From Evansella clarkii (GTDB lineage: Bacteria; Bacillota; Bacilli; Bacillales; Salisediminibacteriaceae): a stretch of 64,000 nucleotides of DNA. A program made the position numbers and the translations under genes. This document shows positions 4,354-32,888 of the stretch, piece by piece. The notes under the pieces were generated by a model. That model did not search any database. It had not been told where the DNA came from and saw only the letters and a program-made list of their open reading frames with translations. Every line of letters starts with the position of its first letter. The first letter of the stretch is position 1. Location of the stretch: positions 170,851-234,850 of the forward strand of contig NZ_MTIV01000022.1 in the NCBI RefSeq assembly GCF_002019695.1, read 5' to 3'.

Positions 4354-4369
4354 ATCTTTCAGACACATA

Positions 4370-4470: not shown

Positions 4471-5028
4471 ATGGATACAAGAGAGGTGTTACGACCATTT
4501 AAAAGACAGCGATTAGGGTTTGAAGGGGTACTGATCGACATATTTGAACCGAACAAACGAAACGGGTTCAGCTACGGGCTCGTATTTGCGAGCGTATATG
4601 CTCCAAATGAAAGAATTGAGCTGGACCACGTAGTTATCCAGATGAGCGTGGCAGATTTCAAGAGGGCTCAATTAACCCTTTATACGCGTTATTATTTCAC
4701 AGCGTCCATCGAATCGTACTACAAAGTGACAGACATTCTTGGGATTACAGCCAGACGAGAAAGTTTCATGCTCCAAAACATCAGTTTGCACAAGCTGCGG
4801 GAATTGCCTGAATCTCAGCTTGCGCAGCCAACCGCATATGTCATGAAACGAATCAATAACATCATGCTCTGCAAGGCCGGACCGCGACATACCGAAGAGG
4901 AACTGATTGATACGGTGTGCAGAACCGCAAATGACGGGTCGGTCGAACAATTTATAAATGAATATACAGAAAGTTATCAGCAGGTCATCGTAAGTAAACG
5001 TGACGTCGAAGACGCCCTGTACGCCTAA
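4471..5028 (+). CDS. Hypothetical protein
   Basis: 185-residue protein of unknown function. The ATG at 4471 is preceded by AGGAGGT at a 10-nt spacing. Another ATG at 4466 is in a different frame and reaches a stop quickly. The first 100 residues look like a beta-rich small domain (strands near GVLIDIF, GLVFASV and HVVIQMS). The rest is helical with many charged residues. I see no export signal, metal site or catalytic motif. It sits between the VWA gene and the Clp-like AAA+ gene on the same strand, separated from both by hairpins, so it is probably its own unit within one functional block. Confidence 0.65.
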   Translation: MDTREVLRPFKRQRLGFEGVLIDIFEPNKRNGFSYGLVFASVYAPNERIELDHVVIQMSVADFKRAQLTLYTRYYFTASIESYYKVTDILGITARRESFMLQNISLHKLRELPESQLAQPTAYVMKRINNIMLCKAGPRHTEEELIDTVCRTANDGSVEQFINEYTESYQQVIVSKRDVEDALYA

Positions 5029-5044
5029 ACCCTAAAAGCACGGC

Positions 5045-5099
5045 CCGCCTGGTCGGTCCGCAATCAAATCTGGGAAGAAATCGCTGAATGACCAGGCGG
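5045..5099 (+). promoter_or_regulatory. Long-loop RNA hairpin in the leader of the Clp-like gene
   Basis: 10-bp stem CCGCCTGGTC / GACCAGGCGG enclosing a 35-nt loop, ending 28 nt before the start codon and just ahead of the GAGGAG ribosome binding site. It has no T-run. A leader structure affecting translation or processing is plausible. Confidence 0.5.
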
Positions 5100-5127
5100 T
5101 ACAAAATGAAAAGAGGAGTGTTGAAAA

Positions 5128-7095: not shown

Positions 7096-7110
7096 AACTT
7101 AAAAAACTGT

Positions 7111-7182
7111 CTTCTGACGAGAGCTAAAAAGCGTTATCAGAAGGCACACGGCCATGTGTACCCAATTGTCGTACACATGGCC
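7111..7182 (+). promoter_or_regulatory. Two hairpins between the Clp-like and helicase genes
   Basis: CTTCTGA (7111-7117) pairs with TCAGAAG (7137-7143), and GGCCATGTGTAC (7150-7161) pairs with GTACACATGGCC (7171-7182), a perfect 12-bp stem. No T-tract follows, only AATTAATTATA. The second is the strongest hairpin in the block. It may be a processing site, or a weak terminator after the Clp-like gene. Confidence 0.55.
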
Positions 7183-7231
7183 AATTAATTATATAGAATC
7201 AAAAATCCATTGAATGAAAGAGGGTATAAGC

Positions 7232-10200: not shown

Positions 10201-10372
10201 ACGCGCGAAGAAGTCCGAGTTTATTATCAACTCTCATCGCGCATCGAAAATGCGTACCGTGTCAGATTCCCATGCCGGGATGTTCCAAACACCGGTCAGC
10301 AGTGCCTTTCTCCGCACGATGAACGACGCGGCGAAGCTCCAGCAGGCTCAGCCTGCGACGGCCACACCTTAA
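7232..10372 (+). CDS. UvrD/PcrA-like superfamily 1 helicase with a long N-terminal extension
   Basis: 1046-residue SF1A-type DNA helicase. Motifs in order: Walker A GQAGAGSGKS near residue 448, motif Ia VLVLSFTNVAA, Walker B ITDESQD, motif III GDGSQTLYEFR, motif IV ETNYRS, motif V STIHGTKGLEFD, and motif VI FVALSRAKK. Family members move 3' to 5' on single-stranded DNA. The first roughly 400 residues are not a normal UvrD part and match nothing I recognise, so they may add a nuclease-like, partner-binding or replication-specific function. I chose ATG 7232, just after AAAGAGGG. An in-frame ATG at 7214 lies inside that ribosome binding site. On a plasmid the helicase could serve replication, recombination or transfer. 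A terminator follows. Confidence 0.88.
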   Translation: MPITIDTSSDNLNEQITQVNNTIALNKQVDAKYFSKNMTGNGKRKTGLFSVDNDTINTFIKESRRLLDRVNLNEAAHKNLERHSQQTFGNFFHQSTKEKDQEFKKFENNLTSMIPPVMLLPILSSASPAALSFPKDIGMYNLNALETIWTKVTNGTIDGKPATTYARPVVQSMRLYSREKKHQSKSGHVSTESQVTGQPDIYVLFATVLDDMDKDGDMIFANSRINGGRRVTENQGVVTLASLEEKSRTEYDYNKLNEQLDNHLIEVIGNTQVNIPGITAHQLSLTIGDESMSDLLESQATTITHQAEETLLKFVEVFSARMKELKAKNYHYPSAQKHLDNALITFVQHIDLLNDIEDNLITTDLLASIYQKLKENLGDQRTINDIARHSLRLLLSQRLHELEEIRDNDGLYRFEPNDQIVNQAMQQNPNYSMQQKRIVTTTDPLVIGQAGAGSGKSHTLIGRINFLKDQGEDLSKVLVLSFTNVAAININNRFPGVRSETLANMFHTIYSATHPAQKLSQPSTVANSIRLLNPASQYFQDMGLDADELREFIEDFAMRLEQFDQTGFKRVNLQQELKRLSNLIEGNLDMCSYVLNAVEQTTLELEPIIIHHKLLHGGDDLNIPDAYQNLNYIITDESQDISTFEYILLLELTLHYRSQLLIIGDGSQTLYEFRNSDPRYMNALEASNVFTSHKLETNYRSNEEILMYANQFLQVIDANKYAGIQLKSSNFSSPTEQSVKDAITIGDNEISGGTLKDYTEGLKEYLQNDKQFEKWFIDRVKKGEQVAIMGWTRKEVIEAGEVIEAMLKDHQLAHIEVTNIMSNNERPMTLLSRFARAKAESLRSFDPTHPHYLKEIERHVDEFLNREFKRASSKQSAFYYNFIMRNVKSVTQSHEWNAWVADYRQGKINRHQIGSFLIQQLLRLETRKNAMDQFLRKQKDVPNYDKCPIILSTIHGTKGLEFDHTVVLFNETKRGATSQESMRMMFVALSRAKKSEFIINSHRASKMRTVSDSHAGMFQTPVSSAFLRTMNDAAKLQQAQPATATP

Positions 10373-16695: not shown

Positions 16696-17094
16696 TTATT
16701 CAGATGGTGCTTCTCTATTCATTCGCTGTTTGGCTATTTCCTTACGACGCTCGCGCAGCCGTTTTGCATACGCAGGACTTGTTCGAAACGCCATCGCTTC
16801 TCGCTCCGGCACGTCGTATTCCTCTCCGGTAACGGGGTTTCTGCCGACACGGGGGGATCTCCTTGATAAGTACCAACTACCCTTCCCGTGCATTTTTACC
16901 TCATTCCCGTTTTCAAGTTCCTCACATATGCTGTCCCACATGGCATCGAACGCGACCTTGATCGTATCTTTATGAATACCTGAGCGCTCTGAGGCCCGTT
17001 CTTCGATGTAATTTTGATTGCGCACATGGCCGCCATCATCTACGAATGGTTTTTCATCACTCTTTTGGGTGTTCTCTCTCTCTTCTGCACTCAT
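16696..17094 (-). CDS. HU/IHF-like DNA-binding protein
   Basis: 132-residue protein whose residues about 30-120 match the HU/IHF fold: an N-terminal helical part (EERASERSGIHKDTIKVAFD), the strand EVKMHGKGSWYL, and the DNA-binding arm with the conserved GRNPVTGEEYDVP followed by AFRTSPAYAKRL. The arm sequence is close to the family consensus. I chose the ATG at 17094 because AAAGGAGGG precedes it. HU proteins bend and compact DNA and assist replication, recombination and relaxosome assembly. It probably shares a leftward transcript with the 248-residue gene and perhaps the RNA polymerase-like gene upstream, so it may act in the same DNA transaction. That last point is inference. Confidence 0.83.
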   Translation of the reverse strand: MSAEERENTQKSDEKPFVDDGGHVRNQNYIEERASERSGIHKDTIKVAFDAMWDSICEELENGNEVKMHGKGSWYLSRRSPRVGRNPVTGEEYDVPEREAMAFRTSPAYAKRLRERRKEIAKQRMNREAPSE

Positions 17095-17119
17095 GTGCAC
17101 CACCCTCCTTTCAGCTATA

Positions 17120-17866
17120 TCATAGTTCCGGACCATCGTCTTCCAGTTCGACATCCCGCTCATCGAACCCGTAATCATCCCCGGCAGTTGTCTTTTGATA
17201 CGACTGACCTCGACCTCGGATGTACGTATCATAGGACTTGTCGTAGTTGTTACCTTTCATTTCTTGCGCTGCCAATTCTTCTTGCTTCACTTGCTGATAC
17301 GAGCGGCGAGTAGGCGTTGTCACCGGTGCGTGTCCTGCGTAGGACAATCCAGCGGCTTTCATTTCCCCTTCCCGACTGAATTGCTTTAAGAGGTCACGCT
17401 GCATCACATTCAGGTCTGCCTCGGTAGGCTCTGTCTGAAGTGGATTCACTCCATCATTGTCCTGTACCATACGGTCATAATCGGCGTGAAAATCGACCGT
17501 TTCCCCTTCATACTTACTTTCAAACGAATCAAACGTTTTTGTATAAAACGAAGGATGATTGGCGGTAAACGCATCGAAATTGCGAACAAGGTTTTTCTCC
17601 CTATCCGGAGAAAGGCTTTCCCCGCCCAGTTCTTTCGTCGATTGTTTGTATGCGTCCAGCATAATATCACGAAGGACGGTATGATCCGGATTGTCCGCGA
17701 GGATGACTCCTCTGCGCCGGAACGAATGCTGGATCTCATCTTTTAGGATTCCGTCGGATTCAGGATCGCCTGACTGTGCCCGGTAATACATAGACTCGTA
17801 ACTGTTTTTAATACGACCTTCCGCTGACAACTGTTCAATTTGTTCTTTTCGCATCATCTTCACCAT
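17120..17866 (-). CDS. Hypothetical acidic protein with EDDGPEL C-terminus
   Basis: 248-residue charged, helical protein of unknown function. The start at 17866 (MVKMMRKEQ) is preceded by AAAGGAGTGG. A longer frame up to 17980 has no good ribosome binding site. There is no signal peptide or membrane segment. Its last residues, LEDDGPEL, are nearly the same as those of the unrelated acidic protein ending at 41215 (SEDDGPEL). A shared C-terminal tail on otherwise different proteins of a conjugative plasmid might be a recognition or secretion signal. It lies between the HU-like gene and the RNA polymerase-like gene, 26 bp upstream of the former's start, so it is very likely co-transcribed with it. 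Confidence 0.65.
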   Translation of the reverse strand: MVKMMRKEQIEQLSAEGRIKNSYESMYYRAQSGDPESDGILKDEIQHSFRRRGVILADNPDHTVLRDIMLDAYKQSTKELGGESLSPDREKNLVRNFDAFTANHPSFYTKTFDSFESKYEGETVDFHADYDRMVQDNDGVNPLQTEPTEADLNVMQRDLLKQFSREGEMKAAGLSYAGHAPVTTPTRRSYQQVKQEELAAQEMKGNNYDKSYDTYIRGRGQSYQKTTAGDDYGFDERDVELEDDGPEL

Positions 17867-18131: not shown

Positions 18132-21100
18132 TTAAAGAGCGATCCCCGCATCTTCTTCTACAGAGGCTGGAACTGGTTGGGCCAGACCTTCTGTTTTCTC
18201 AGGTGACGCTTTTACAGGTTCTATGATACGCTGCGTATCTTTCTTCGCGAGCTTGGTCTGCTCTGTCGCTTGGCGCATGGTAAACGGAGCAAATCGTTTG
18301 TTCTGCTCCCCTTCCAGAAGAGACTCCCCGTTAATCGCGAGTTTCGTAAGTTCATCATAACCGCCCCCGTAGGCCACGCGGTCCATCGGAGATCCTTTGA
18401 TCGCCATCGCATCTTTCAGCGGGAGGATCTGCCCGTTATGGGTCAGCGTCTCGGTTACCGAATCAATGAATTTCTCATTGACATCGACCCGCATCTTGTT
18501 CTCCATGATGTCGGAGAGCTGTGTTTTGAACGTATGCGGTGTGAGCGAGCGCTTCGGGTTATTCACGTCTTTCCCGCGGAACGTTTTGTTCATATCATCC
18601 GTTAGGATTTCATTCACTGTACGAGCATGATCCGCGTCGTGCTTAATCTGGAGCGTACCCTGCGTGAGCGGATACATCGATTCCAGTGCCGCTGTGATAT
18701 CCTGGTTACGCATCGTCGAGACGAGCTTCTGGCTGAACGCTCCTGCAAGACCAGTATCATCGGACTTAACGCCTGTGGCGTACTGAATTTCCCGGGCGTC
18801 ATGCTCGGTCTTCTTGCCTGTATGATACTCTTTGTAGTCGTCTAGCTTTTTCGGACTACCTTTCGCCCCGTTATCCACCATTTGCTTAAATGAATTGAAT
18901 ACCGCCTCGTCATTTTTGAACGAAACGAAATCTCCGCCAAAACCGTGCTCTCGGAACAGCTTGTGGCTGTATGCGTTTAAATCACGCTGAGACTGCTTTA
19001 AGAGTTTTGGATTCGAGCTCTTTGCGTTCTTCTCGGCTTTTTCATACAGCTTTTTCGGGCTGTCATCCCCGAGCTTCTCCGCTCTCGCTTCGGCACTCGC
19101 TAAGTCCATTCCTGTCTGGAAGTACAGCTCGTCTTTTCCTGAACCTTTATCGATCATGTTCGCCCAGTGAGAGAATTTCTCGACCAGGTCTTTATTGGCT
19201 GCTTTCGAATCGAACTTCATGATACCCATGGTGTCTCCATCGAAATCCATATCGTGTGACTTATCCGCAATCGGGTTAATTGCAATCCCGTGAACCGAAT
19301 CGTCTTTCACGACTGTCATAGCACGGATCGCCCCATCTCGCCATACCGGATCACGGAACGCCATGACAACGTCGCCTTCTTTAGCATCCAGCGCATCCAT
19401 CATGTCCTGATTCATCCCCGCTTCCCCGATGTTCAGTCTCGGGTCTACAACCGCTACTCCTGTAGCAGAATGATTCATACGTTTCCCCATGATCTTGTCA
19501 CGGATAAAGCTGTGTTTACCGTTATGGCCGCCGTCAAATTGCCGATCAATGATGGTGGACTGGATCTTATCGAAATGGTCTTGCGCTTTCGCCTGCGCTT
19601 TCTCCTTGGCTTCGTCCGTGTCGGCTGTTGTATAGTCATAGACGGCATCGTAGATGTTCGCGTAATGGTTCGTGAAATCCGATCGTCTCATGGAGCCGTC
19701 CACCAATTCTACGTTCTGGCGAAGTGACGCCGATAAAACCGGAATTTCATTGGTTGTTCTACCATTTTTAAACTCTACTTCAAATGGCACGTCCAGGAAG
19801 CCGCCCTGGTCTTTAATTTGATCTAAAAACTCACCAGAGTCCACGTCCGGATCATACGTAAAGTGGTGTCTCTCCTCATCGGCATGAGGGGTATACTCAT
19901 TCATGATGGTGCCATCCGCTTTCATATCCAGACCAGTTGCGATCAGGTATTCACGGTACGTACTCCAAGCAGAATCGTTTCGGCCATAAATTTCATCCAG
20001 GATGCCGTTCGCTTGCTTAGATTGCAGCGCCCAGGCAAGCTGACCGCTTGCTTTACGACCTTTTCCTTCAAGAACGTCCTCTCGGGTATACGCGTGGGTC
20101 TTGTCATCCACTTTCATATCAGTGACGATGATGTTCAGCTGACCCATGGCTCCTTCGAATGTCTCCCCGGTATCCGGATCGACAAGGTCTTTCACTTCAC
20201 CGTCCATGAGCTCTTTTACCACTCCGGCATTGTGGCGGGAGAGCATGGAATACGGCGCACTCACCACATCAAGCTCAGGATTCGCTTTCATGAAGCGTAC
20301 TTCTTTATCAAGCCCCTGCTTTTTCGCTTCAGCAGGGTCCATGTCACGGTCAATGACAATCCCGATTGTTCCTTTGTTACCACCGAAGTCAGAGAGCTTA
20401 TCTCCACGCTGCAGCGGGCGGAAGCGACCGTGTTCTTCCAGGAACGACTCCATGGCTTCGCCCGCTCTTGCACGGCTGCTACTGTCTGTCACACCTGTCC
20501 ACGCGTTATATAAATCAACACCTTTGTCCAATAGTTCCCGGGACCACAACATTCCACTACCTTTTAAGAGCATTGCCGGGTCTTGGTCTGGGTCGACCGC
20601 CAGCTTCTTAATCGTGCTGTCCAGTACAGCCATGGATTCTTCGTTTGGTTTGTGGCCAAAGACTTTGTTACGCTCAGCAAATTCTTTTGAAACGGCGTAG
20701 CTGTCATCGAATGTCCAGCCGCCAAATGCCATCAGTGCTGTATTGACGTTTTCATCGACTTTTAGAGCGGTCATCAACTGGTTAGATGACATTTGGTTAC
20801 GATCCCACGCGTTGAATGACTTTTTATCAAAGTACGGAAGTTTTTGAAGCGCCGTTTTATCCGGTGCGTACGTTCCGTCTTCCTGTAAAATCCCCTTAGA
20901 TGGGGTCACGCTTCCGTCTTTGTGGACCTCGGCGCCATCTGTTAAGTACCAGATCAACCCTTGTGTCTTACCGGTCCCTGTCATGGTTGTGTCCGCATAG
21001 TTCTCAATATCTTTATCCAGCACCCGCATATTCGTCTCTCCGGCCACTTTCCAGTAGCTGAATGCGGATGTGTCATCTTGGTTGCCATACTCCCGGTTTG

Positions 21101-23429
21101 CTGCTGTTTCCGCACTGGTTGTCGCATAATCAGAGAACTGGTTATCGAAACGCACACGGTTGGAAAGTGTCTGTAGTATCGCACTTTTTGTAGCAGTATC
21201 TAACTGGTTTGTTTCCATGAAATCCAATTCAATACGCTTGCCGTATACATCCCCGTGATACAGACCATTAATACCGCTCGCATCAAGCACTGTCGGTATT
21301 GTACCGATCGCAGGGTCGAGCGGGCGAGTCATCTGGTGCGTCACTTTCGCACGCAGCTGCTCCGTTAAGTGCTGTTCAAACCCTTTGGCACGAAAACGAT
21401 TCATACGATCGTCGTAATCCCCTTCAAACGAGAAGTAGCCAGTATATCCCGGAACGATCCCGTAGTTGTTACCACCCTGGAACTGCGTGGCGATAATTCC
21501 GTTTTCATCCGGTACCATAACCTGTCCGATTTCTCCGTTTACTTTTTGCCACATCTGGTCTTTTTTCTTGGAACCAGTTCGGCGGTTTCCTTCCCAGCGA
21601 ATAACGCCGTTCTCATCGATTTTTACGTCCGGATTGGAGCCGAACCCATCTTCCCCGACAAACCCGCCGGATTTCAGCGTGTCCTGCACAGTTGTTAGAG
21701 CCTGCTTCAGCATTGGATGTTCTATCTCGTCGATAGACTTTGCCGTTTTCGGATCAAATGCAATCAGGCGTTCTCTCATGGCATTGACTGCAAAGTCATT
21801 TCCTTTGATTTTGTCCAGATCATATTTGACGGTTTTTAGAGCCGCCATCATCGCATCCCGTTCGTTACCTCTACCGGTTTGCTGCATATGATCGATAACA
21901 AATGCCGGATTGAACCCTCTCTCGTAATCCCCTGTGATGGAATTCTGTACGGTATTCAGGTAACCCATTCCGCCATCCTCGCTGTGAATGGCCATTTGTG
22001 CAGCACGCTCTTGCGCTTCACGGATAATATCATCATTGGAATATAACTTCTCCAGCTCCGCCTGGAATTCCGGACCGGTAATCAGCACGTCTTCGTTATC
22101 CAGTCCTGAGTCGATTAAGGCTTGCAGTTCTTCGGCCTTGAATTGGTCCGTTACAACCGCCTGAGCATCCCCGATCGCTGTTTCGATGTACTCTTTTGCT
22201 TCTGCTTCGCCGGCAAAAACAAGAGAGCGATAACGGCCTTTTATAGGCTGTACCTGGAGGGATTTCTGACGATCCACCCCATCCAGCTGAACACGGCTGG
22301 ATTCACGGCTGACGGATTTCACGACTTTTCCTGTCTTGTTTCCTGTCACGTAATCCAAGAGCGCAATGGAGTCACTAGCTTCGAACTTCGTATTTTCTTT
22401 TACGGATTTAGAACCCATTACGTTAAAGTAATACGCATTATACGCATCGTATACACGACCGATGTAGCTACCGTTAGCCTCGGAATCGAAAACGCGGACA
22501 TTAATGTTCTCCCCGGCATTCATGCGAACTTCGATCTGATTTGGATTCCCGTTTTCACGAACGTTGAAGTCATAGCCGTTTGAGCGCATATGCTTGAGCA
22601 GCTCGACGCTGTTTTCTGCAAGTTCGTAATCGAAAAGCTGATCTTCCCCGATATTTTTCGCTACAGCCTCCGCGTCGGCTTTTGTGAGGTAAGCACCCAT
22701 CACATGAGAAAGACCTCGATATTCCTTCCCATCGTATTTACCTCCGTTCCAGCCGAGCAGCTGTTCGTTGGATATAATAACGGCATCTTCGGATTCCGCA
22801 GGCTCATTCTGATTTTCTGGCCCATTCGCCCCAGCCGGAGTGGAAACAGCTGCCTGGTTGAACCCTGCCCGCTCGTTTTGTGCTACACCTGCTACACCTG
22901 CTGCAGCAACCGTAGATTTGAACGTGAAATCCGCATCCGTACGATCATGAAAAGTCACCGCATCTCCAGGATTTAACTCACGCGCCGACTTTTCTTTATG
23001 GACGAAAAACGCTTTTCGCATTGGTTCGTCGGCCTGATTTAAGATGTTATCCCGGATGACCGGATCAGTGACAACATGCAGGTAATTTCCTTCTTGCGCA
23101 TGTTTATCGTATTCGCTCCGGGAGAGCGCCCACATTTCTGCGACCCCTTTATCTAAAGACTCGTATTCATCCAGCTTCCCGAACGAGGTCGCCCCGGTAG
23201 AACGAAGCAATCGAACGAAATCGCTCGGCTTGGCCTTCATTGTGGCAAAGTCCATCGGCTGCCCATCGCGTTCCCATTTGTCACGGAATTCCTGCATGAG
23301 AGAAGGTGTTACTCTTATTCCTTGCTTTTTCAAATCACCCATCGTCTGTGAGAGCATAACCATCGTGGCATACTCAGCGATGTCCTGGTATCGGGTATCC
23401 GTCGTCTGTTTTTCTATTGTCCCCAACAT
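18132..23429 (-). CDS. Single-chain RNA polymerase-like protein with both catalytic double-psi barrels
   Basis: 1765-residue protein with the two catalytic barrels of cellular RNA polymerase on one chain. Near residue 1009, GDKLSDFGGNKG matches the beta-subunit motif GDK-x6-GNKG. Lysines 1011 and 1019 keep the 8-residue spacing of the bacterial active-site lysines, and DVVSAPYSMLSRHNAGVV follows, as in beta. Residues 1317-1400 follow the beta-prime pattern: RMNHSATGVAVVDPRL, then the metal-binding DFDGD at 1395-1399 with its three aspartates. SDDTGLAGAFSQKLVS near 1556-1570 resembles a trigger loop. The known family parallel is phage single-chain polymerases such as SP-beta YonO. The N-terminal 950 residues are unrecognised. 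I start at ATG 23429, behind AAAGGGG; an in-frame ATG at 23474 lacks a good site. It lies directly downstream of the coupling-protein gene, behind that gene's terminator. DNA-dependent RNA synthesis or primer making is inferred. Confidence 0.82.
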   Translation of the reverse strand: MLGTIEKQTTDTRYQDIAEYATMVMLSQTMGDLKKQGIRVTPSLMQEFRDKWERDGQPMDFATMKAKPSDFVRLLRSTGATSFGKLDEYESLDKGVAEMWALSRSEYDKHAQEGNYLHVVTDPVIRDNILNQADEPMRKAFFVHKEKSARELNPGDAVTFHDRTDADFTFKSTVAAAGVAGVAQNERAGFNQAAVSTPAGANGPENQNEPAESEDAVIISNEQLLGWNGGKYDGKEYRGLSHVMGAYLTKADAEAVAKNIGEDQLFDYELAENSVELLKHMRSNGYDFNVRENGNPNQIEVRMNAGENINVRVFDSEANGSYIGRVYDAYNAYYFNVMGSKSVKENTKFEASDSIALLDYVTGNKTGKVVKSVSRESSRVQLDGVDRQKSLQVQPIKGRYRSLVFAGEAEAKEYIETAIGDAQAVVTDQFKAEELQALIDSGLDNEDVLITGPEFQAELEKLYSNDDIIREAQERAAQMAIHSEDGGMGYLNTVQNSITGDYERGFNPAFVIDHMQQTGRGNERDAMMAALKTVKYDLDKIKGNDFAVNAMRERLIAFDPKTAKSIDEIEHPMLKQALTTVQDTLKSGGFVGEDGFGSNPDVKIDENGVIRWEGNRRTGSKKKDQMWQKVNGEIGQVMVPDENGIIATQFQGGNNYGIVPGYTGYFSFEGDYDDRMNRFRAKGFEQHLTEQLRAKVTHQMTRPLDPAIGTIPTVLDASGINGLYHGDVYGKRIELDFMETNQLDTATKSAILQTLSNRVRFDNQFSDYATTSAETAANREYGNQDDTSAFSYWKVAGETNMRVLDKDIENYADTTMTGTGKTQGLIWYLTDGAEVHKDGSVTPSKGILQEDGTYAPDKTALQKLPYFDKKSFNAWDRNQMSSNQLMTALKVDENVNTALMAFGGWTFDDSYAVSKEFAERNKVFGHKPNEESMAVLDSTIKKLAVDPDQDPAMLLKGSGMLWSRELLDKGVDLYNAWTGVTDSSSRARAGEAMESFLEEHGRFRPLQRGDKLSDFGGNKGTIGIVIDRDMDPAEAKKQGLDKEVRFMKANPELDVVSAPYSMLSRHNAGVVKELMDGEVKDLVDPDTGETFEGAMGQLNIIVTDMKVDDKTHAYTREDVLEGKGRKASGQLAWALQSKQANGILDEIYGRNDSAWSTYREYLIATGLDMKADGTIMNEYTPHADEERHHFTYDPDVDSGEFLDQIKDQGGFLDVPFEVEFKNGRTTNEIPVLSASLRQNVELVDGSMRRSDFTNHYANIYDAVYDYTTADTDEAKEKAQAKAQDHFDKIQSTIIDRQFDGGHNGKHSFIRDKIMGKRMNHSATGVAVVDPRLNIGEAGMNQDMMDALDAKEGDVVMAFRDPVWRDGAIRAMTVVKDDSVHGIAINPIADKSHDMDFDGDTMGIMKFDSKAANKDLVEKFSHWANMIDKGSGKDELYFQTGMDLASAEARAEKLGDDSPKKLYEKAEKNAKSSNPKLLKQSQRDLNAYSHKLFREHGFGGDFVSFKNDEAVFNSFKQMVDNGAKGSPKKLDDYKEYHTGKKTEHDAREIQYATGVKSDDTGLAGAFSQKLVSTMRNQDITAALESMYPLTQGTLQIKHDADHARTVNEILTDDMNKTFRGKDVNNPKRSLTPHTFKTQLSDIMENKMRVDVNEKFIDSVTETLTHNGQILPLKDAMAIKGSPMDRVAYGGGYDELTKLAINGESLLEGEQNKRFAPFTMRQATEQTKLAKKDTQRIIEPVKASPEKTEGLAQPVPASVEEDAGIAL

Positions 23430-23514
23430 GTCGTCAAAACCCCTTTCATTTTGCTCTGTACACAGCGTTTTCATATCGTTTTAAAAACAATTTACATAGC
23501 TTAATTATACCATA

Positions 23515-23540
23515 GAAAAAAGAGGCCGAAGCCTCTTTGG
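23515..23540 (-). terminator. Terminator after the coupling-protein gene
   Basis: Perfect 8-bp stem AAAGAGGC / GCCTCTTT with a CGAA/TTCG loop, followed on the minus strand by a T-run. It lies 80 bp beyond the virD4-like stop and upstream of the RNA polymerase-like gene, which then needs its own promoter (TGGTATAAT at about 23504-23512, minus strand). Confidence 0.88.
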
Positions 23541-23619: not shown

Positions 23620-24791
23620 TTAGTTTTGCATTTTCAGCTGATACGCCCGTTTCGCTCCCTGTTCAAATCGGCCACCGGCAAGGTCCCGCCACGATTCCAA
23701 CTCCGCCAGAAACTTGATGAATTCATCCGTGACTTCATAGAATACTTCATTGGTGTCTCCTTCGCCGTACACGCGCGTCTCGGCGTCCATCTCGGCGTTT
23801 TCCAGTGACTGGATGTCTTCCCGGTCAGCGCCCTTACTTGTCCGCACGTACATCACACCGGTATCGCTGGTGAGCTCTCCGTTGTCATTGACACGGAACC
23901 CCGGGGCGTCTTCGAAGTATTTCTGTGATTCGGCATATGCCTCAGCCAAGACCTTATCGAGCTGACGGTTCACCTGTCCGCCAATCGCAACTAAGTCCTC
24001 CCGGCTGATAAGACCACCCGCATACCGTTTTTGCTGATGCGTCTCCTGCTGGCTCTGTGCTTTTGCCGCTTCCTGAACCACCTCGGTGTTTTCCTCGGCA
24101 GCATCCAGGATATTGCCGAATTCATCCATGTCCGGTACGCCTTCCATATCTTCCGCGAGGTTTTCCCCGGCCGGGCGGTGTTTGATATTGTACATCTGTG
24201 AGTTTATTGCATGCATAATATCATCTGCGACAACGTTTTGGTCAAGACGGATTAGATCCGTCTCTGAAAGCTCATACGCATCCAGGTACGCCTGTTTCAT
24301 CATACCTGCCATCTTCGCCTGTTCCAGACGGCGCTCCAGCATATTAAAGAAGTCCGGCTGGTTTTTACGTACGTCGAAATCCTTCGCGCTGGAGTTTGTC
24401 GGAATCGTCTGCAAGCTAAATTTCTTACCTGGCAGATTAATTTGATTCTGAAATAATCTCCAACTCATCGGATATGCTGTTTCATTACGATTCCAAATCG
24501 GGCTTACACCTGCTTTAATCACGATGGAATTACGCTGCTCAATAAACATGAAGTCATTGAACTGGATAACCGGGCGCTCTTTTGTCGCCATCGTATAGCT
24601 GATTTTTCCTTCGTTTTTATACCAAAGCCGTTCATTGTCACGCGTGACGGTCTTCTGATCCACACGCGCTTCGTGCGTGGTACCTGACATTTTCACCAGG
24701 GTGTCGATCATGGAATCATCCGTGGACTTTAAGAACACGATATTCTCGGTGTTACCTTGGATTATCTTATCTACTGATTCGCCGTAAACAT
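23620..24791 (-). CDS. Coupling protein exon 5 (C-terminal part)
   Basis: Encodes the C-terminal 390 residues of the coupling protein, from DVYGESVDK through the conserved IVFLKSTDDSM region to a variable acidic tail. Alone it has no start codon with a ribosome binding site; a TTG inside the preceding intron would be needed. The 5' edge could move by a few bases because GA[C/T]GTT occurs on both sides of the intron. Confidence 0.8.
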
Positions 24792-27700
24792 CGGATGTTT
24801 TATTTAGGCGCAACCCTAAACTCTATGTCAATTCATAGCACCCTCATTACAAGGCGTGACCTGACTATATGTCAATCTGCCCGTAAAGGCAGACCATCTA
24901 TTTTTCGAGGTGTCATTCGCTTACACCCCTACGGGGACACCATCCCCTAGTCGATGAACGTTCTCCATCACACGTATGTGTGACTGCGGAGATTCGTAAC
25001 CAAACAGACCCTTGTTGTCAGCGATTAGGAACCGTATCTGACGGCTTTTGTTTCATCCTTTCGCCATCCCGCCATGCGATGATCGCACTCTTAACTTCTT
25101 TCTGCTCTCGCTCCTTCACGCTTGCCTTTTCAAGCTACGTTGTGGCGTGCGGGCTCTTTAGGTCGTTCAAGGTATTTAACTGATGTAATGGTACGCACCC
25201 ATTACGGATACGCAGAGATATTGTCAGGCGACGACAACGTCTTCTCTGAGCTGCTGTAAAGTTTGGAGAATAAGCGTAAATTGCTGTTCCTGGCCAAGGC
25301 CTATACTCAGCATCGTCTGCAATGCAGGTATGCCGTTTCCTTCCGACTGCAAATTGCCCACTTCGTCCAGCATATACCTTGTTTTATACAGCGGTTTCTG
25401 GTTTTCTTTTGTGAGATACGAGCTCTCGAAATTCACATCTACCATCTGTTTAATTAAAATCAAGATCAATTTCGCATAACTCATAAGGTGAGGTGGCGTG
25501 ATAAAAAATATTGCTTTCGGACGTTCCGTATACTTCACAGTCTTCTGGCTGAACGCCGGAATCTCGACGATTTCTTGTTTCCTGTTTTCATCAAGTAAGT
25601 CGTAATACCGGCGCTTTACGACCGTGTCGCGGTACTCGAACTTGTTCTTCTTTTTGTTAAACCGAAGCTCCCGGAGCGCCCCGTCTTTTATGATTTTCTT
25701 GTTGAGCACAGGGTCTTTCACGTACCGGCGTCCGGACAGGTCTGTTTTAAAGGTAAGCTCCAATTCAAAATAAAACGTCTTGACGAGCAATCCTGTCTTC
25801 GGATTCTTGATCTGCAGCTTGATATAACTCTTACGCTTTTTGAACTTCCCATCAAAGAAGTAGCGGGCCCATCCTTCCCGGTCAATCGTTTGTGTGTGGC
25901 CGAATGTTTTTTTATCGAGCTGATTTTCAAATGCCGGGTCTTCATAAGCGGTCCAGACAGACTGCAAACCGACCAATTTATATTTCTCAAGATACTCGGA
26001 CGCAAATCTCACCCCGATCCTTCGTGGGAACGACAGGCCTTTCGCATCGAAATTCTGTGACGGTTTCCCGGATGTTAATGTAGATATTGTTGGGTCTGTA
26101 AAGAATGACATGGCTGTCACTTTTGCATTCATACAGAGTCGCTACACTCTATACCGCTTAAAAATCAAGCCGCTTGTGCTTTCACACAAGAATAGACTAT
26201 ATCAAACACTCAGAGAGTGTCCCCCCGTTTCCCCCACCAATCGCTTGTGGAGTACGCCTATCATACATAGGACTTATTAGTCGTTGAAGCCTTTATCTTA
26301 TAGAATAAGATAACTTGCCTGCTGATTACCCATTGTGGTATCTGTTTCATTTTCAAACCGTCACGCTTATCGTCACCGATTACGTTGTGGTTGAAACAGC
26401 TTTAGGGTTTCCCAGCAATTAGAGGGGTTTCGATTATGTGTCTCCACATAAAAGCCCTAATCAATAAGGCGATGCCATATACAATAGTGATAGGTAAGAT
26501 TTTGATGCGATCTCCATCTTTTCCCCCACTCCACACCGTGCATGCGACTTTCATCGCACACGGCGTTCCATCAAAATAGCAAACTGTTCAGATTTATTAT
26601 TTTGAAATAGACCGCTCATAAAAACTAACGCTAATGGCTGGTAGCGATAACCTTATGACAACTTCCACATAGCACCTAGTTCAACCGAATCTGCTTCAAA
26701 TGCTTGCATCATTTCGTAGCACCGCCACCTTTACGTTGTAAGTTGGACACATTATCAATCTATTATCCAGGAATACTCTTTATCATAGTCTTTAGCATCG
26801 GGCATTCCTTCATCCACCCACATATAAAAATCAAGCAAATCTGCATCCCAAAACACGACATAGTTCAATTTATTATCTCTAGCCATTTCGCGTTTGCGCA
26901 CATCACGAACTGTCCATGTTTGAATGGCATTATCGTAATAAGGAGAATTCTTATTTTGCCAAGATTCCACTAAATCCTCGTCCATCATCCCATCTGAACC
27001 ATACCAATGTTTACCGTGTGTCCATGCGGCATTTAACTCAATAAATAAATCACGACTTTTAATATAAAAGTCACACATGAATGGATAGCGACTGTCTTTA
27101 TATTGTCTAACGACATCTGCTCCAAAAGTATTATATAGCGATTGATACATGAATTCTTCGGGCTTCGACGTATTAAATGTGTTATTCTTCCGTTTTGTTT
27201 CATTATTTCGCTCTATCATTACAGGTAATGCCTCACGAAAACTCTCACTCTGGGAATAATGTTTCGCACCGTATTTCTTTAGTTGTGTGATCTCACTTTT
27301 CTTCAAAATTTCGGGCAAACGACTTTGGTATTCTTCCGATTGTGCATAATTCGGTACACCGTATCGTTTTAATAAAGTTATTTCATTTTTATCCCTAAAT
27401 TCATCTGTTTGACTATAATGACTCACACCGTATTTCGCTAACATTGATGTTTTATATTTATCTCGGTATTCATCCGTCTGCGTATAGTTATCAACGCCAT
27501 ATCGGTCACGCACCGTATTTACCAATTTATCTTTAAACGCATCTACGTACATAACATTATCCACACCATATCGCTCACGTACCGTCTTTTTAATACCATC
27601 CACCCTCGTTGGGTGATTAGTTACAGCAATAGAGCGTATGGCATTGGCACATTCTGGACAACCAGAACCTTGAATGTGTGAATTAGCTTCTTGTTCAAAC

Positions 27701-30700
27701 GCTCCATGCTCTCCACATTTAATAATCACTTTGTCGCGATTTCTGGTAAACTTTGTTTCACTATAATCATATTTATTATTATGTTTCTCATTTGCTTTTT
27801 TAATAAACGATGACAGTGTCATTCGTGCATTAGGTGCGCATTTCGGGCAACCTTTACCTTTGGTGTGGTTTCCTGCAATTTGTTCAAAAACACCATGAAC
27901 CGCACAAATGATTTTTACTTTAGAATCTCTATTTTTATAATCAACTAAACTATAATCATATCTCTCACCATGATTTGCTTTCGCGCGCTTAATCCATTCA
28001 TCTGTTGACAACTTAATCGCCATTTTACCACCTGCTATGTTTTCATGTTATACATTAATTATAACATGAAAACACTGACAGCCCAACGTTTTGCATTATA
28101 AACAAAGGTTTTAACCCTTGTTTATCTGAACAGTTTGCTATTTTGACTTGTGGCCATTGCTCCCACCCTCATTACAAGGATTATCAACGCTTCGACCACT
28201 ACTTTTCAGCACCCATTCATCTGCTTATCATTCTTCGTCAGATTCCTAAACGGTGAGTACCTTTCGCTGTTCCGTATAATCTATCTGTACATATATAGCC
28301 GTAGGTTCCCACTTTGACTATTAAAACCACAAGTATACCTGTAATATACTATGGGAGTTCATTTACGCCACATTACTACCCCACAATTCCAATAGTCGTT
28401 CATTCGCAGGTTCGTCAGTTTGATTTAACAAACATTCTAACCATAGCTATTTTATAGACTCCCGACTTATAAAAAAGCCGACTTCACCGAGCTTCGCACA
28501 TACTACGTTTCCGCCATGTATGCACGTCGGAGATTAGAGAGCGCATTTCAAGACGTTACCCTATCATTCTGCGCTTCGATTATACAGTTTACCAAGCAAA
28601 TCAAGCCGCTTGGTAGCCTATCTTTTCAATAGACAACAACTCGCACGACGCAATTGTTTTATCCGAGCCAGCCATAGCCCGTAATGCATTATCCGTGTTT
28701 TGAACGAGCTTTCTCATTTCATTTTGTGGCAGCTTCGCCGTAGCATCAAAGAACAGTGTCAGAAAGTCTTTTTCTTTCACGTTTTCATCTTCGTCGATTT
28801 TGATGACAGACGGATCGGTCGATTTCTTGGCCGACAGGACAACGAATAACTGGTAGGCATTATACAGCGTGACTTTCCCCCACATGTCATCCAGTTCCTG
28901 CATGAGTACCTTCTCCGGTTTCCCATCGATCTCCGCCTGCTTACGCACGCGTTTTTCTTCTTCCAGATAGAAATCAATCAAGCCGAAAGCGGAACGCTTA
29001 AAGGCGTTGTTCGCGGCGTTAGGCCACATGGGATCATCAGCACCTTCTTTCGGGAAGAAGATATCCCCGATGTTTTCGATATACGAAGCGGCTTTAGTGA
29101 AATCCCCTTCACGTGCGGACTCCGCCGCAAATCCTAACGATGTCGATAGGTAAGTCTTTGATGTTATCTCCAACTTTTCCCCCGACCCACACCGTGCGTG
29201 AGAGTTTCCCCTCACACGGCGTTCCATCAAAACACATTGTTTACATTATTGGTGAATTACTAACTAGATTTCGAAGTTTGTTCAATGTATCTATTTGTTT
29301 CTTAGTCATATTCAACTTCAATTTATATGCGTTAATTGTCGTTGAATCCGTAGCGTGTATAAGTATGTGTATGTCATGTGACACCCATACTAAGTTCTTA
29401 AATTCATCTGTACCACCATCAATGCGTTGTATTCTGTGATGGCAGTCCATTTCTGCGGGGTGGAATCGAACACCCAACACGCCACATTTACCACGCTGTG
29501 CTACGTATTTAGAAATCCGATTATCTCGGAAATCCACTCTATTGTTAGAACGACTTCTATTTCTGTGAATATAAGTGATATACGCACTTGGTATCGCTTC
29601 GGTTTTACTTTTCTTATTCAGTAATTCCCTACCGCTTTTAGTATATAAGTTGATACCCTGTGAAAAGTTCATCGGTTTCTTTGTGCGAATTGCATATAGT
29701 GTTTCCAAAGGAGTGTCGGTAATTTTCAATATCTGCGTATTAGGCTTCATGCCTACGTTTCGCTTTTTATAATCCGCGTCTAATGTTTGATATGTCCCCC
29801 ATTCACCTCTATCGGACAGTCTGCTTTTGATTGTTCGATAGATTAATATACTTGAAAGGTTGCTCGCAACATTCGTCGCGTACTGATAATACGACTTAAC
29901 ACCTTGCACATACGAGTTATAATGTATAGCACTTTCGGGTGAATCCGAACTGTATCTAATACGCTTTATGATGTCACGACTTTCCTTTTTGATTCTTGTT
30001 ATCGCACCATCAGATATGTCAGTCTTAGCGACATATCCGTATCGTGTACCACCTTTTGGTATCACTTTAATCTTGAAACCTAAGAATTCTACACTTTTCT
30101 CACGCATGTCTACGACGCTGCACTTTTCTTCACTTACATCTAACTTTAGACGATGTTTTAGGAAATCACATATTGCGTGATAAAACCTTATTGCGTGGTC
30201 GTATGTTCGACACATGATTTTAAAATCATCAGCGTATCTCACAATGTAACCACTCTTTAGGTTTGTATTTCGCGCTTTCAAGTTCAAGAAATTAACTGTT
30301 GATTTATAACTTGAAGGGAAGTCCACCCATTGACTAGCGACCCATTTATCTAGTTCATCCAAATAGATGTTTGCTAGTAGTGGTGATAAGATACCACCTT
30401 GCGGAACACCTTTATTTTGTACCCCTTCACCCTCAACAGGAGCATCTAGCATTTTAGAGATAAGGGATAGAACTTGTTTATCCCTAATACCACTTGACCA
30501 CAGTTGGCGTTTTAATTTATCATGGTTCACATTATCGAAAAATCCTTTAATGTCAATGCTCACACAGAAGTATTGTTTACCCACGTTTATCAATGATACC
30601 AACCTCGATAATGCGTGACTTGCATTGCGATTATCTCTGAAACCATAACTATGCTCATAGAATTTGGCTTCATATATGGGTGACAATACTTGCATAATAC

Positions 30701-32888
30701 ATTGTTGCACCAATCTATCACTAATGGTCGGTATACCTAGCGGTCTTAATTTACCATTACCTTTTGGTATATAGACCCTACGCACAGCCTGTGGTTGATA
30801 TTTCGCTAATTTCCCTTGAACCATTTCGACTAATTCATCGTCAGTCAGCTCATTGAGTTCGTTAATGTTTTTACCATCAACACCCACTGTATCTCGCCCG
30901 CTGTTATTCCTAATTCTTCGATACGCTAACAGTATATTGTTACGGGACTTTATAATAGGATATAACTTTTTGAAGTTATCACCGTTTTTACTGTTCGCAT
31001 ATAGCGTATCAAATGTTTCTTGCATCTCATACATTTCGAAATCTCTTAATTTATCACTCATGCTATCTGCATCCCCTTCCTAGTAGGAATTTGATACATC
31101 TAATGTTCTTAATCGAATTAGCATGATTTCACCTAATATAAACAATACATTCTGACTTGAGGTCTTCCCTCCACAGCTTATTATCACTGCTTCACTGGTA
31201 CTACACCTCTACTGCCACCCTTATTAAGTCACGTTATGAATTTCGCAACAACATCTCAAACGGTTCCCACCTTGACGTTAAGGGCTTCACACGTTCCAAT
31301 GATACTATCCATTTAGACGTAACTTAGGTGCTTTCTCTGAACCTGTCACCTTGATACTGCCTGTAACAGTATATGGGCTTTCATAACAACCAATCTTACT
31401 CACCCACAGTAACACGCGATTCCGCGCCCGACGTTTTCACGTCGTTCATCATTCTAGGTCCGTACATTCGAAAGTTCGTCAGACATCTATGTCATTCTCA
31501 CCATATTACGCTTTTGGACACCCGACCTATCTATTCACATATCTTGTGAACAAGACTTAGCGATATTCAGCCGACTTCACCGAGCTTATAACATACATCT
31601 TTGGATTTAAGACGTATGCTATTCGGAGTATCAGTGAGCAAGTTTCAGGGCGTTACTCCGTCATTCCTTGCTTCGTATCATCAGTTCTCATAATTTATGC
31701 TACTAAATCATGGCGATAGCTTTTCACTATCGAACGTGTCGCACGATTATAAATATCTGTATTTAATGGATTAATCAGGTTGAACTGCACGATTTCGTAC
31801 CCCCGGATCGTGGCGGGAACAAAAAACTTAACGAGCAACTCCCCCTTTGGGTCATTGACTACCATGTTGTTTTTACGCTTTTCGCGCGTCCACATGTCTA
31901 GGGTAGGCTCAATCACAGTCTGGCCTTTCCCGGCTCTGGTAATAGCCAACACCATGGTGTTAACCGGTGCGGTATCTACGAGATACGCCCCCGCCGGTCG
32001 TTGCACTTCGTATTCTGGAAACTCCCAATCTTTATTAATTAACTCGGCAACGGTGTCATACGGGAGTTTGTCACGGTCTTTGCGATTCCCTGTATCATCG
32101 ACCGGATTATACTCGATTCCCCGTACATCAATCGGGGTACGAATGTCTTTTTCACTGACGGGAATCCCACTTGCTGTGAACAATTCCTGACCGAACTTTT
32201 CATCGATTAAAGGCTTTTTCGAGCGAACAGCCTCCCCTTTATCGTTATAGACGACCTCGCCTTTGTAGGTAACAACCTCGCCATTCTCTTTCACATCTTT
32301 TTTGTGCCGCTCGGTCACATCCACCCGTTTTAAGCCCTTTTTATCAAGCATCATGTGAGAAAGCATACTGGACACCTGCACACTGGAATGAGCTCCGGTA
32401 TCCGGGAACCAATCATACATGCGCTGCATTTCTTCCGGGAGCATGATGTGCTGGTCGTTTTCGTATGTGTTGATATCTGTGGAATCAACCATACTGTTTT
32501 TCGAACGCCAGCTCGCCATCATTCTTTCATTGGCGATCAGCCACGCCATCAGGAATACGAAGCCTGTCCAGGCGTAAATCTGCCATCCGGAAGTCACTTC
32601 AATTTGGCTCATGTCAAATTCCAGGAACGACGAACCTTCTGAGTTCGATACGAACTGGAAAAAACCTAAGACGATGGTGACAAAAGCGCCAAGTAAAAAA
32701 CCTAAAAAGGCGAATATAGCTGCAATGAACACGGCGACTATCCGTTCTTTGATCGGTTTATCCACCTCACCGCGCTCTCCGCGTTCCATCATCTGATTGG
32801 AGTGAACTTCCCGGTTTTTCACCCGCTCTTTATAGTCCTGGTTCTTGAGCATCTCCCAGTTCTTCGCTTTCTTTTTCAATAAACCCAC
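23620..32888 (-). CDS. virD4: VirD4/TraG type IV coupling protein, split gene of five exons
   Basis: Joining 32888-31745, 29139-28647, 26483-26467, 26119-25244 and 24791-23620 gives one frame of 1233 residues. Coupling proteins are hexameric inner-membrane ATPases that hand relaxase-DNA to the T4SS channel. Two membrane segments lie near residues 45-75 and 100-120. A Walker A-like AITRAGKGQT and VVNDPKGEL lie in exon 1, Walker B YMLDEVGNL in exon 4, and the IVFLKSTDDSM stretch typical of Gram-positive VirD4 in exon 5. The rebuilt junctions read DIYN-PLGFAAESAREGDF, TIAS-VYGIAL-TAMSFF and QQLR-DVYGESVDK, which is how uninterrupted family members read from memory. Without splicing no full protein can be made. 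The promoter region carries operator site C. The exon 4/5 junction is the least certain. Confidence 0.85.
24792..25243 (-). ncRNA. Group I intron without ORF (intron 4)
   Basis: About 452 nt between exons 4 and 5 of the coupling-protein gene. On the minus strand the core elements occur in order: a Q-like GAATCTCCGCAG, R with TTCATCGACTAG (about 24944-24957), a P8 stem GGTGTC/GACACC, and S with GACATATAGTC (24863-24873). GACTA of R pairs with TAGTC of S to form P7. The proposed 3' end is a G, as expected. I could not find a convincing P1 with a U-G pair, so the 5' splice site is inferred from protein continuity (QQLR-DVYGE). An in-frame stop lies about 20 nt into the intron. Confidence 0.72.
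25244..26119 (-). CDS. Coupling protein exon 4
   Basis: Encodes about 292 residues from TAMSFFTDPTIST to the QQLR junction, including Walker B (YMLDEVGNL) and the NFDAKGLSFPRRIGVRF segment. Reading from exon 3 the codon TTG (Leu) is completed across the intron (T plus TG). As a stand-alone frame it has no recognisable start. Confidence 0.83.
26120..26466 (-). ncRNA. Group I intron without ORF (intron 3)
   Basis: 347 nt. On the minus strand the core is textbook: P element TAATTGCTGGGAAACCC (about 26405-26421), Q GGTAATCAGCAGGCAAG, R TTCAACGACTAATAAG (26273-26288), and S GATATAGTC (26195-26203) with ACTA/TAGT pairing in P7. P1 is clear: exon GCCU pairs with intron sequence in the hairpin GCCUUA-UUGAU-UAGGGC, placing the conserved U-G pair exactly at the splice site. 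The intron ends in G. Both edges restore the reading frame GIA-L-TAMS. Confidence 0.9.
26467..26483 (-). other. 17-nt micro-exon (exon 3) of the coupling-protein gene
   Basis: Minus strand TGTATATGGCATCGCCT lies between the 3' end of a group II intron and the 5' splice site of a group I intron. It supplies the last base of a Ser codon, then VYGIA, then the first base of a Leu codon, giving TIAS-VYGIAL-TAMSFF as in uninterrupted homologues. Confidence 0.85.
26755..28023 (-). CDS. EDxHD (Vsr-like) homing endonuclease inside group II intron 2
   Basis: 422 residues. Two N-terminal treble-clef-like modules of the DUF723 type end in CPKC (near residue 55) and CPEC (near 120). Then come five or six repeats of about 22 residues built on RYGV-x6-Q, like the DNA-binding repeats of phage homing endonucleases. 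The C-terminal domain has CDFYIKSRDLFIELNAAWTHG, matching the active-site region of the EDxHD family (I-Bth0305I, Vsr). It would cut an intronless allele and promote intron spread. EDxHD enzymes are known from group I introns and phages, so presence in a group II intron is odd. Its own promoter carries operator site B. GC is lower than that of the host gene. Confidence 0.8.
   Translation of the reverse strand: MAIKLSTDEWIKRAKANHGERYDYSLVDYKNRDSKVKIICAVHGVFEQIAGNHTKGKGCPKCAPNARMTLSSFIKKANEKHNNKYDYSETKFTRNRDKVIIKCGEHGAFEQEANSHIQGSGCPECANAIRSIAVTNHPTRVDGIKKTVRERYGVDNVMYVDAFKDKLVNTVRDRYGVDNYTQTDEYRDKYKTSMLAKYGVSHYSQTDEFRDKNEITLLKRYGVPNYAQSEEYQSRLPEILKKSEITQLKKYGAKHYSQSESFREALPVMIERNNETKRKNNTFNTSKPEEFMYQSLYNTFGADVVRQYKDSRYPFMCDFYIKSRDLFIELNAAWTHGKHWYGSDGMMDEDLVESWQNKNSPYYDNAIQTWTVRDVRKREMARDNKLNYVVFWDADLLDFYMWVDEGMPDAKDYDKEYSWIID
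28058..28092 (-). promoter_or_regulatory. Promoter of the homing-endonuclease gene with operator site B
   Basis: Minus strand TTGGGC (28081-28086), 17-nt spacer, TATAAT (28058-28063) with an extended TG. The 24-bp palindrome AAAACACTG-ACAGCC-CAACGTTTT (28069-28092) overlaps the -35 and spacer and is a perfect match to the consensus. It lies inside intron 2, 46 bp before the ORF. Confidence 0.78.
28647..29139 (-). CDS. Coupling protein exon 2
   Basis: 493 nt encoding about 164 residues from PLGFAAESAREGDF to SDKTIAS, the central part of the VirD4 ATPase domain. It begins and ends in the middle of codons that are completed only by splicing. The frame that continues into intron 2 (CELLSIEKIG...) ends after some 15 intron-encoded residues. 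Confidence 0.85.
29140..31744 (-). mobile_element. Group II intron with LtrA-type maturase (intron 1)
   Basis: 2605 nt. It begins GTGCGACACG at 31744 (minus) and ends in GACAT at 29140. Domain V is at 29189-29224: CGCCGTGTGAG-GGGAAAC-CTCACGCACGG. EBS1 GGTTGT (31386-31391) pairs 6 of 6, with wobble, with exon ATAATC just before the splice site. Domain I lies at 31062-31744, and domain IV holds the reverse transcriptase at 29241-31061. Splicing joins AATC to CGTTAGG, restoring DIYN-P-LGFAA. It appears complete and potentially mobile. Confidence 0.92.
29241..31061 (-). CDS. ltrA: Group II intron reverse transcriptase/maturase with HNH endonuclease
   Basis: 606-residue intron-encoded protein. 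The reverse transcriptase domain (about residues 60-330) has the metal-binding YADDF in IVRYADDFKIM and the GVPQGGILSPLLANIYLDELD block. A maturase (X) domain follows. The C-terminus carries an HNH nuclease: CGVLGVRFHPAEMDCHHRI...GGTDEF..LVWV..DIH. It would help its intron fold and splice and, as an RNP, reverse-splice into DNA. The start follows AAGGGG at suitable spacing. All core motifs look intact and no frameshift is seen. It may also serve intron 2, whose RNA is closely related. Confidence 0.95.
   Translation of the reverse strand: MSDKLRDFEMYEMQETFDTLYANSKNGDNFKKLYPIIKSRNNILLAYRRIRNNSGRDTVGVDGKNINELNELTDDELVEMVQGKLAKYQPQAVRRVYIPKGNGKLRPLGIPTISDRLVQQCIMQVLSPIYEAKFYEHSYGFRDNRNASHALSRLVSLINVGKQYFCVSIDIKGFFDNVNHDKLKRQLWSSGIRDKQVLSLISKMLDAPVEGEGVQNKGVPQGGILSPLLANIYLDELDKWVASQWVDFPSSYKSTVNFLNLKARNTNLKSGYIVRYADDFKIMCRTYDHAIRFYHAICDFLKHRLKLDVSEEKCSVVDMREKSVEFLGFKIKVIPKGGTRYGYVAKTDISDGAITRIKKESRDIIKRIRYSSDSPESAIHYNSYVQGVKSYYQYATNVASNLSSILIYRTIKSRLSDRGEWGTYQTLDADYKKRNVGMKPNTQILKITDTPLETLYAIRTKKPMNFSQGINLYTKSGRELLNKKSKTEAIPSAYITYIHRNRSRSNNRVDFRDNRISKYVAQRGKCGVLGVRFHPAEMDCHHRIQRIDGGTDEFKNLVWVSHDIHILIHATDSTTINAYKLKLNMTKKQIDTLNKLRNLVSNSPIM
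31745..32888 (-). CDS. Coupling protein exon 1 (N-terminal part)
   Basis: Encodes 381 residues plus one base, from MGLLKKKAKNWEML to DIYN. It includes a basic N-terminus, two membrane segments and the Walker A-like AITRAGKGQT. The ATG follows AAAGGGTGG. Read without splicing it would continue only some 16 residues into the intron. Confidence 0.87.

Follow-up and report, generated by a model that had tools for sequence, protein, structure and literature searches.

The general view is that plasmids rely on the RNA polymerase of their host as soon as they have entered a cell. Single-chain RNA polymerases with two barrels have been described in phages, namely YonO of SPbeta, an 839-residue transcriptase of phage late genes (PMC5467207), and gp64 and gp96 of P23-45, of which gp96, a virion RNA polymerase fused to the tape-measure tail protein, has been proposed to transcribe phage DNA while this DNA enters the cell (PMC10770324). 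For the N4 virion RNA polymerase and polyvalent proteins, delivery of a polymerase with DNA is described, as are conjugative elements that send primases across (PMC5512222). Here we analysed a 64,000-nucleotide stretch of Evansella clarkii DNA (the window), in which a gene for a single-chain, two-barrel polymerase of 1,765 residues adjoins the gene for the type IV coupling protein (T4CP) of a conjugation region. This pairing is conserved, the polymerase shares a short C-terminal tail with two other proteins of the region, and we propose tentatively that the polymerase may be carried into the recipient with the plasmid strand. The dendrogram text of PMC10770324 has an entry 'Plasmid single subunit RNAPs', without plasmid names, which possibly covers relatives of this polymerase; sections 11-13 of that paper hold nothing on a coupling-protein linkage, a tail or a role in conjugation, and 'conjugat' does not occur in its main text. 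No paper on the linkage or the tail was found in the literature searched, outside of which lie many subscription papers.

The polymerase gene and its catalytic core

The polymerase is encoded on the minus strand in an open reading frame (ORF) at 18132-23474 of 1,780 residues, and the residue numbers used here are those of this form (subtracting 15 gives the 1,765-residue numbering). The ATG at 23429 is a likelier start than the ATG at 23474 because GAAAGGGG stands ten bases 5' of it, because the database prediction P0002, which is the window's own protein, has 1,765 residues, and because the longer form would begin with codons that overlap a palindrome (23448-23471). The window belongs to contig C2 (234,850 bp) of a 5.48-Mb genome, and since the genome also has a contig of 5.22 Mb, C2 is probably a plasmid; when the ends of C2 were compared no overlap was found. 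Only one of the 35 genomes of the host's family, that of the host itself, has the polymerase gene, which fits what is expected of a mobile element. The main features of the gene are as follows.

18132-23429, minus strand: single-chain, two-barrel RNA polymerase gene, 1,765 residues from the likely start (1,780 from the ATG at 23474)
20370-20405, minus strand: beta-type barrel loop GDKLSDFGGNKG, residues 1024-1035 (K1026 and K1034), aligned on GDKMAGRHGNKG of host RpoB
19233-19247, minus strand: DFDGD, residues 1410-1414, predicted catalytic metal-binding aspartates, aligned on ADFDGD of beta-prime
18855-18866, minus strand: AKGS, aligned with the SGARGS segment of beta-prime, in what we take to be the bridge-helix region
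18705-18779, minus strand: putative trigger-loop-like segment, residues 1566-1590, with conserved T1574, G1575, G1578 and Q1582

The initial annotation had described a one-chain protein of 1,765 residues with both barrel motifs, a GDK motif near residue 1009 with its lysines eight residues apart, and DFDGD at 1395-1399; the frame is real and both motifs are present where they had been placed, the shift of 15 being that of the longer numbering. K1026, K1034, D1410, D1412 and D1414 are invariant in 114 of 114 proteins (the query, the query's own database copy and 112 others), including relatives down to ~28% identity, which excludes a chance occurrence of the motifs. In hhalign comparisons the family profile matched host RpoC with E 6.9e-11 and host RpoB with E 5.8e-8 around both catalytic motifs, and the predicted model matches the RPB1/beta-prime subunit fold over 509 residues. 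The Pfam domains Rpb1_2 (E 4e-5) and Rpb2_6 (E 8e-5) are just below their cut-offs in the window polymerase, and both are above them in all five relatives scanned, a set picked for having both domains in their existing database entries. The polymerase has the lysine pair of the beta-type barrel, the DxDxD of the beta-prime-type barrel and a predicted beta-prime/RPB1 fold around the DxDxD, as members of the two-barrel (double-psi) RNA polymerase superfamily do. Judged by its sequence, it is a one-chain relative of cellular RNA polymerase, in which a beta-like part is followed by a beta-prime-like part, and RNA polymerase activity is predicted for it. In the cellular enzyme beta and beta-prime are separate chains, whereas here they form one, and the host keeps its own rpoB and rpoC. 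The flap of cellular RNA polymerase serves in sigma docking. In the window polymerase this flap seems to be absent, as far as can be told from the model without direct superposition, because the stretch before the GDK loop shows helices and only two two-residue bridges between strands ~905-929 and 1026-1041. The N-terminal 600 residues gave no convincing match when compared with the PDB.

Of the two profile comparisons that had been suggested for this protein, the one with beta and beta-prime gave the matches to host RpoC and RpoB, whereas the one with the single YonO sequence gave E 0.48, and YonO-like kinship by sequence was therefore rejected. What the two polymerases have in common is a single chain with two barrels and an HU-like gene nearby. 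The family profile matched P23-45 gp96 with E 1e-7, and in a search of 50,697 phage records P23-45 was the sole match (E 0.008) at a threshold of E 0.01. The best single PDB sequence match of the window polymerase is 8h2n_A (E 0.0015); this entry is deposited as 'Tape tail measure protein', and the matched segment ends in the DFDGD of the P23-45 virion RNA polymerase region. Unlike the P23-45 enzyme, the window polymerase matches cellular beta and beta-prime well past the DxDxD region, and whereas the former is fused to a phage tail protein, the latter is of plasmid type and adjoins a coupling-protein gene. It is not phage-encoded among virion genes: a MobL relaxase, the T4CP and other conjugation genes surround it, and one weak phage match is all that was seen. 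HU-like or DNA-binding genes lie just past the polymerase region in the window (16696-17232) and in a Streptomyces plasmid, and past yonO in SPbeta and phage Perkons. In phage phi3T the annotation splits yonO (L055:1104-4011; loci and stretches used for comparison carry L numbers) into two genes with a gap between them, which gives the impression of an interruption. The HU-like or DNA-binding genes of the Streptomyces plasmid, SPbeta and Perkons lie at the following coordinates, listed by locus number.

L056:4764-5042
L057:4580-4870
L069:21173-21571

Pairing with the coupling-protein gene

The initial annotation had placed the polymerase gene directly beside the coupling-protein gene in a conjugation region, and this holds: the T4CP gene (23632-32888) ends ~190 bp upstream of the polymerase gene on the same strand. 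A MobL relaxase and a coupling protein, the latter encoded in four pieces, are both present, as in MobL-type conjugative elements. The genes of the region are listed here.

16696-17232, minus strand: HU-like DNA-binding protein (Pfam PF00216, E 1.2e-16); ORF as listed, its start overlapping the preceding gene
17120-17866, minus strand: 248-residue protein directly downstream of the polymerase, ending in LEDDGPEL, with no Pfam match
23632-24807, minus strand: T4CP piece 4, residues 839-1230 of the L002 protein, weak TraG-D_C match
25242-26120, minus strand: T4CP piece 3, residues 552-844 of the L002 protein, T4SS-DNA_transf
28613-29155, minus strand: T4CP piece 2, residues 377-557 of the L002 protein
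31746-32888, minus strand: T4CP piece 1, residues 1-381 of the L002 protein
33070-35343, minus strand: conserved 757-residue protein upstream of the T4CP gene, read as a membrane protein from a hydrophobic stretch near its end
35616-37532, minus strand: ClpB-like AAA ATPase (Pfam AAA_2, E 2.4e-38), conserved upstream in the block by synteny
38939-41161, minus strand: MobL relaxase (Pfam PF18555, E 3.4e-44)
41215-42279, minus strand: 354-residue protein adjoining the relaxase gene, ending in SEDDGPEL

The T4CP gene is interrupted three times, by a group II intron at 29140-31689 with a reverse-transcriptase-like ORF, by a second group II intron at 26484-28592 that is directly adjoined by a group I intron match at 26173-26476, and by a third gap (24807-25242) that had no Rfam match at gathering score. 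In L003 the T4CP gene is likewise in pieces.

A scan of GTDB genomes gave 48 polymerase loci, which span Bacillales, Clostridia, Lactococcus, many Actinomycetes and one metagenome-assembled genome (MAG) labelled Muribaculaceae. In 40 of these a T4CP match lies upstream on the same strand, the match in one of them (L034) being weak and at a contig edge, and the gene order AAA ATPase, 757-residue protein, T4CP, polymerase is common to loci from Bacillales through Streptomyces. The pairing of the polymerase and coupling-protein genes is thus conserved across phyla. The polymerase occurs in 13 of 72,556 plasmid records. The closest coupling proteins (at least 435 bits) are those of 12 records, all of which belong to these 13, while the next records have at most 171 bits and, among the matches listed (60 of 85), include none of the 13. 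The thirteenth plasmid, pJM4A, is missing from the coupling-protein matches listed, and the tally by genus has no place for it either. One relative is encoded on pGKT2 of Gordonia, a plasmid that was moved between species in the laboratory (PMC5640721). Staphylococcal (L051) and lactococcal (L052) plasmids carry divergent members of 1,739 and 2,382 residues, annotated as hypothetical proteins. The MAG labelled Muribaculaceae (L030), a possible misbinning, has the polymerase and a UvrD/AAA module and no coupling-protein match within 8 kb upstream. In the window a divergent module at 544-10372 encodes AAA proteins, a VWA-like protein and a UvrD-type helicase, and it partly recurs near the polymerase at several loci, including L009, L033, L046 and L030. 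A transposase-like ORF at 50928-52175, of IS110 type by eye from the sequence, lies between conjugation genes.

The C-terminal tail and the common palindrome

The polymerase ends in a tail that is a candidate docking or transfer signal.

18135-18158, minus strand: C-terminal tail EEDAGIAL of the polymerase

The pattern D.G..[LIVMF] at the C-terminus was found in three of the 283 predicted genes of C2, and these are the polymerase gene and the genes at 17120-17866 and 41215-42279. Database searches with both other proteins showed that the tail is kept in 55 of 114 polymerases, in 50 of 76 relatives of one of the other proteins and in 27 of 29 of the other; without the window's own copies these numbers, in the same order, are 53 of 112, 49 of 75 and 26 of 28. 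When the motif was read one residue earlier there were 1, 0 and 0 matches, at seven larger offsets (2 to 40) there were none, and among all hexamer windows across the three protein sets, tails included, it occurred in 478 of 244,225. Among polymerases less than 60% identical to each other 18 of 54 have the tail, and the exact terminal EDDGPEL is present in 3 of 112, 17 of 75 and 19 of 28 relatives of the polymerase and the two other proteins, respectively. The actinomycete polymerases often end in forms like DDDYGMGY, and a looser pattern, which was written after seeing the tails, fits 24 of 31 loci. In pGKT2 a pattern of GP-x-hydrophobic within the last nine residues, written after seeing some pGKT2 tails, was found in 8 of 781 ORFs of at least 100 codons, in a scan without the first 6 kb and without ORFs cut at the borders of the stretches scanned. 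Of these eight, five correspond to annotated genes, of which four lie next to mobL and the fifth lies two genes past the polymerase gene; the other three are absent from the PLSDB gene table, which is itself incomplete. A short motif running from acidic to hydrophobic residues at the very end of unrelated transfer-region proteins resembles a docking or export signal, and we infer that it may be one.

A 24-bp palindrome with the consensus AAAACGCTGTGCGCACAGCGTTTT has 28 copies on C2 at 18.1 bits or more, of which 24 lie no more than 250 bp from a predicted gene start. Besides the polymerase and T4CP genes, several others in the conjugation region are preceded by it, and TATAAT-type boxes, identified by eye, are often close to it at varying distance.

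23448-23471, minus strand: operator-like palindrome of 24 bp before the polymerase gene, 19.9 bits
23504-23509, minus strand: TATAAT of the predicted polymerase-gene promoter, read directly
23516-23535, minus strand: terminator-like hairpin GAGGCTTCGGCCTC with a T run, in the spacer that separates the T4CP gene from the polymerase gene; similar sequence in L002-L005
32931-32954, unstranded: palindrome before T4CP piece 1, 30.3 bits
35471-35494, unstranded: palindrome before the gene for the 757-residue protein, 24.1 bits
60797-60820, unstranded: palindrome before the gene at 59826-60734, 28.5 bits

The palindrome is at the same place before the polymerase gene in L002-L005, with a weak match in L003 (15.0 bits), and was not found in the nine other stretches scanned. 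We read it as a putative operator at which a regulator of the plasmid would act on promoters of the host type. Because it is common to the polymerase and conjugation genes it ties the former to the latter, and the putative host-type promoters with this palindrome suggest that donor expression of the conjugation genes can do without the plasmid polymerase. A copy of this palindrome (28069-28092) and a TATAAT also precede the ORF at 26755-28023 inside the intron, and because of this the ORF may be under the plasmid's regulator. A second, iteron-like repeat, TATTACGTAATATGTAATATATTTA, has 20 sites on C2 at three or fewer mismatches (for example C2:169627 and window 35571); these are mostly intergenic and precede several plasmid genes, and the units that make up the repeat are palindromic. 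No copy of TTACGTAA occurs in the stretches L002-L006.

Proposed delivery to the recipient and its alternatives

In the explanation that we prefer, the short acidic tail would dock the polymerase on the neighbouring coupling protein, the polymerase would pass the secretion channel into the recipient together with the single-stranded plasmid, and there it would transcribe or prime the incoming strand; first expression in the recipient would then not require that the new host's enzyme recognise plasmid promoters. We consider the arguments for and against this as about evenly balanced. The bolder statement, that Gram-positive conjugative plasmids ship a one-chain polymerase tagged by an acidic GPEL-like tail which it shares with other cargo, and that it transcribes the strand at once, is possible, with the balance tilted somewhat against it. 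Delivery, one of the roles proposed in the initial annotation, gains support because the C-terminal tail is shared with other proteins. It would parallel, for a conjugative plasmid, the virion RNA polymerases of some phages, in which the polymerase is brought in with the DNA. Conjugation systems do transfer proteins (PMC8406263), and leading genes of the F plasmid are transcribed in the recipient from single-stranded promoters (PMC9849209).

Several observations weigh against delivery. The strict tail is missing in 59 of 114 polymerases, one staphylococcal (RKDVEMEMS) and one lactococcal (VEIEMEV) plasmid member were read without it, and none of the proteins that bear it is a proven type IV secretion substrate. 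Alternatively, the tail could serve in protein interaction as the tip of SSB does, a possible reading because the SSB proteins encoded close to the polymerase gene in pGKT2 and pGS01 have EPPF-type tips, or it could be a tag for the ClpB-like AAA protein. The polymerase, at ~200 kDa, is a large cargo. Eight of the 48 loci (L027, L030, L032, L035, L040, L044, L046 and L047) had no T4CP match, the contigs of L027 and L046 beginning inside the polymerase gene, and MOB-suite types 9 of the 13 plasmid records as non-mobilizable. As for novelty, at least two family entries (P0005 and P0028) have already been named 'DNA-directed RNA polymerase' automatically.

The first alternative is that the polymerase is recruited to the coupling protein and acts in the donor, making for example RNA on the displaced or replacement strand, so that the tail would be for docking and not for export. 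The gene pairing and the tail data also fit docking without export, and for the F plasmid docking of relaxosome proteins on the coupling protein is described (PMC8406263). The conjugative primases that PMC5512222 names, however, act after transfer, and no precedent on the donor side was found in the literature searched. We regard action in the donor as unlikely, though worth keeping in mind.

It is rather unlikely that the polymerase is dedicated to transcribing a particular set of the plasmid's genes once the plasmid is established in a cell, in the way that YonO serves the late genes of SPbeta. Both YonO (PMC5467207) and the P23-45 polymerases (PMC10770324) transcribe phage genes, and the repeat TATTACGTAATATGTAATATATTTA, for which there is no other explanation, lies before several plasmid genes. 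Against this, the repeat is made of palindromic units, TTACGTAA is missing from L002-L006, and host-independent transcription in an established cell, which the initial annotation had also proposed, loses support because several conjugation genes, and the polymerase gene too, carry TATAAT-type boxes beside the common palindrome.

A primase made from an RNA polymerase, whose main product would be the primer for complementary-strand synthesis in the recipient, is doubtful; primer synthesis was the third role proposed in the initial annotation. In the host's own genome the DnaG zinc-ribbon family matched only the chromosome and Prim-Pol gave no match, and a reference title in PMC9849209 describes an F single-strand promoter for both transcription and primer synthesis. 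The search of this genome covered only these two primase families, however, and pGKT2 has an annotated P4-family primase besides the polymerase, which also speaks against delivery or its novelty. That the protein is mainly a regulator or structural component of the relaxosome with a retained catalytic core, for which one could cite its unmatched N-terminal 600 residues and the lack of a known promoter, is highly improbable given that all five catalytic residues are kept throughout the family.

With 112 database proteins in addition to that of the window, the family forms a well-sampled branch among polymerases of cellular type that are fused into one chain. A plasmid polymerase that is tied to the DNA-export gate across two phyla would offer a start of expression that is independent of the host, and this might favour transfer from one species to a distant one. 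For Gram-positive conjugation, the shared tail provides a candidate cargo signal that is simple and can be tested. If delivery is true, the tag would be a new secretion signal and the polymerase would be to plasmids what virion RNA polymerases are to phages.
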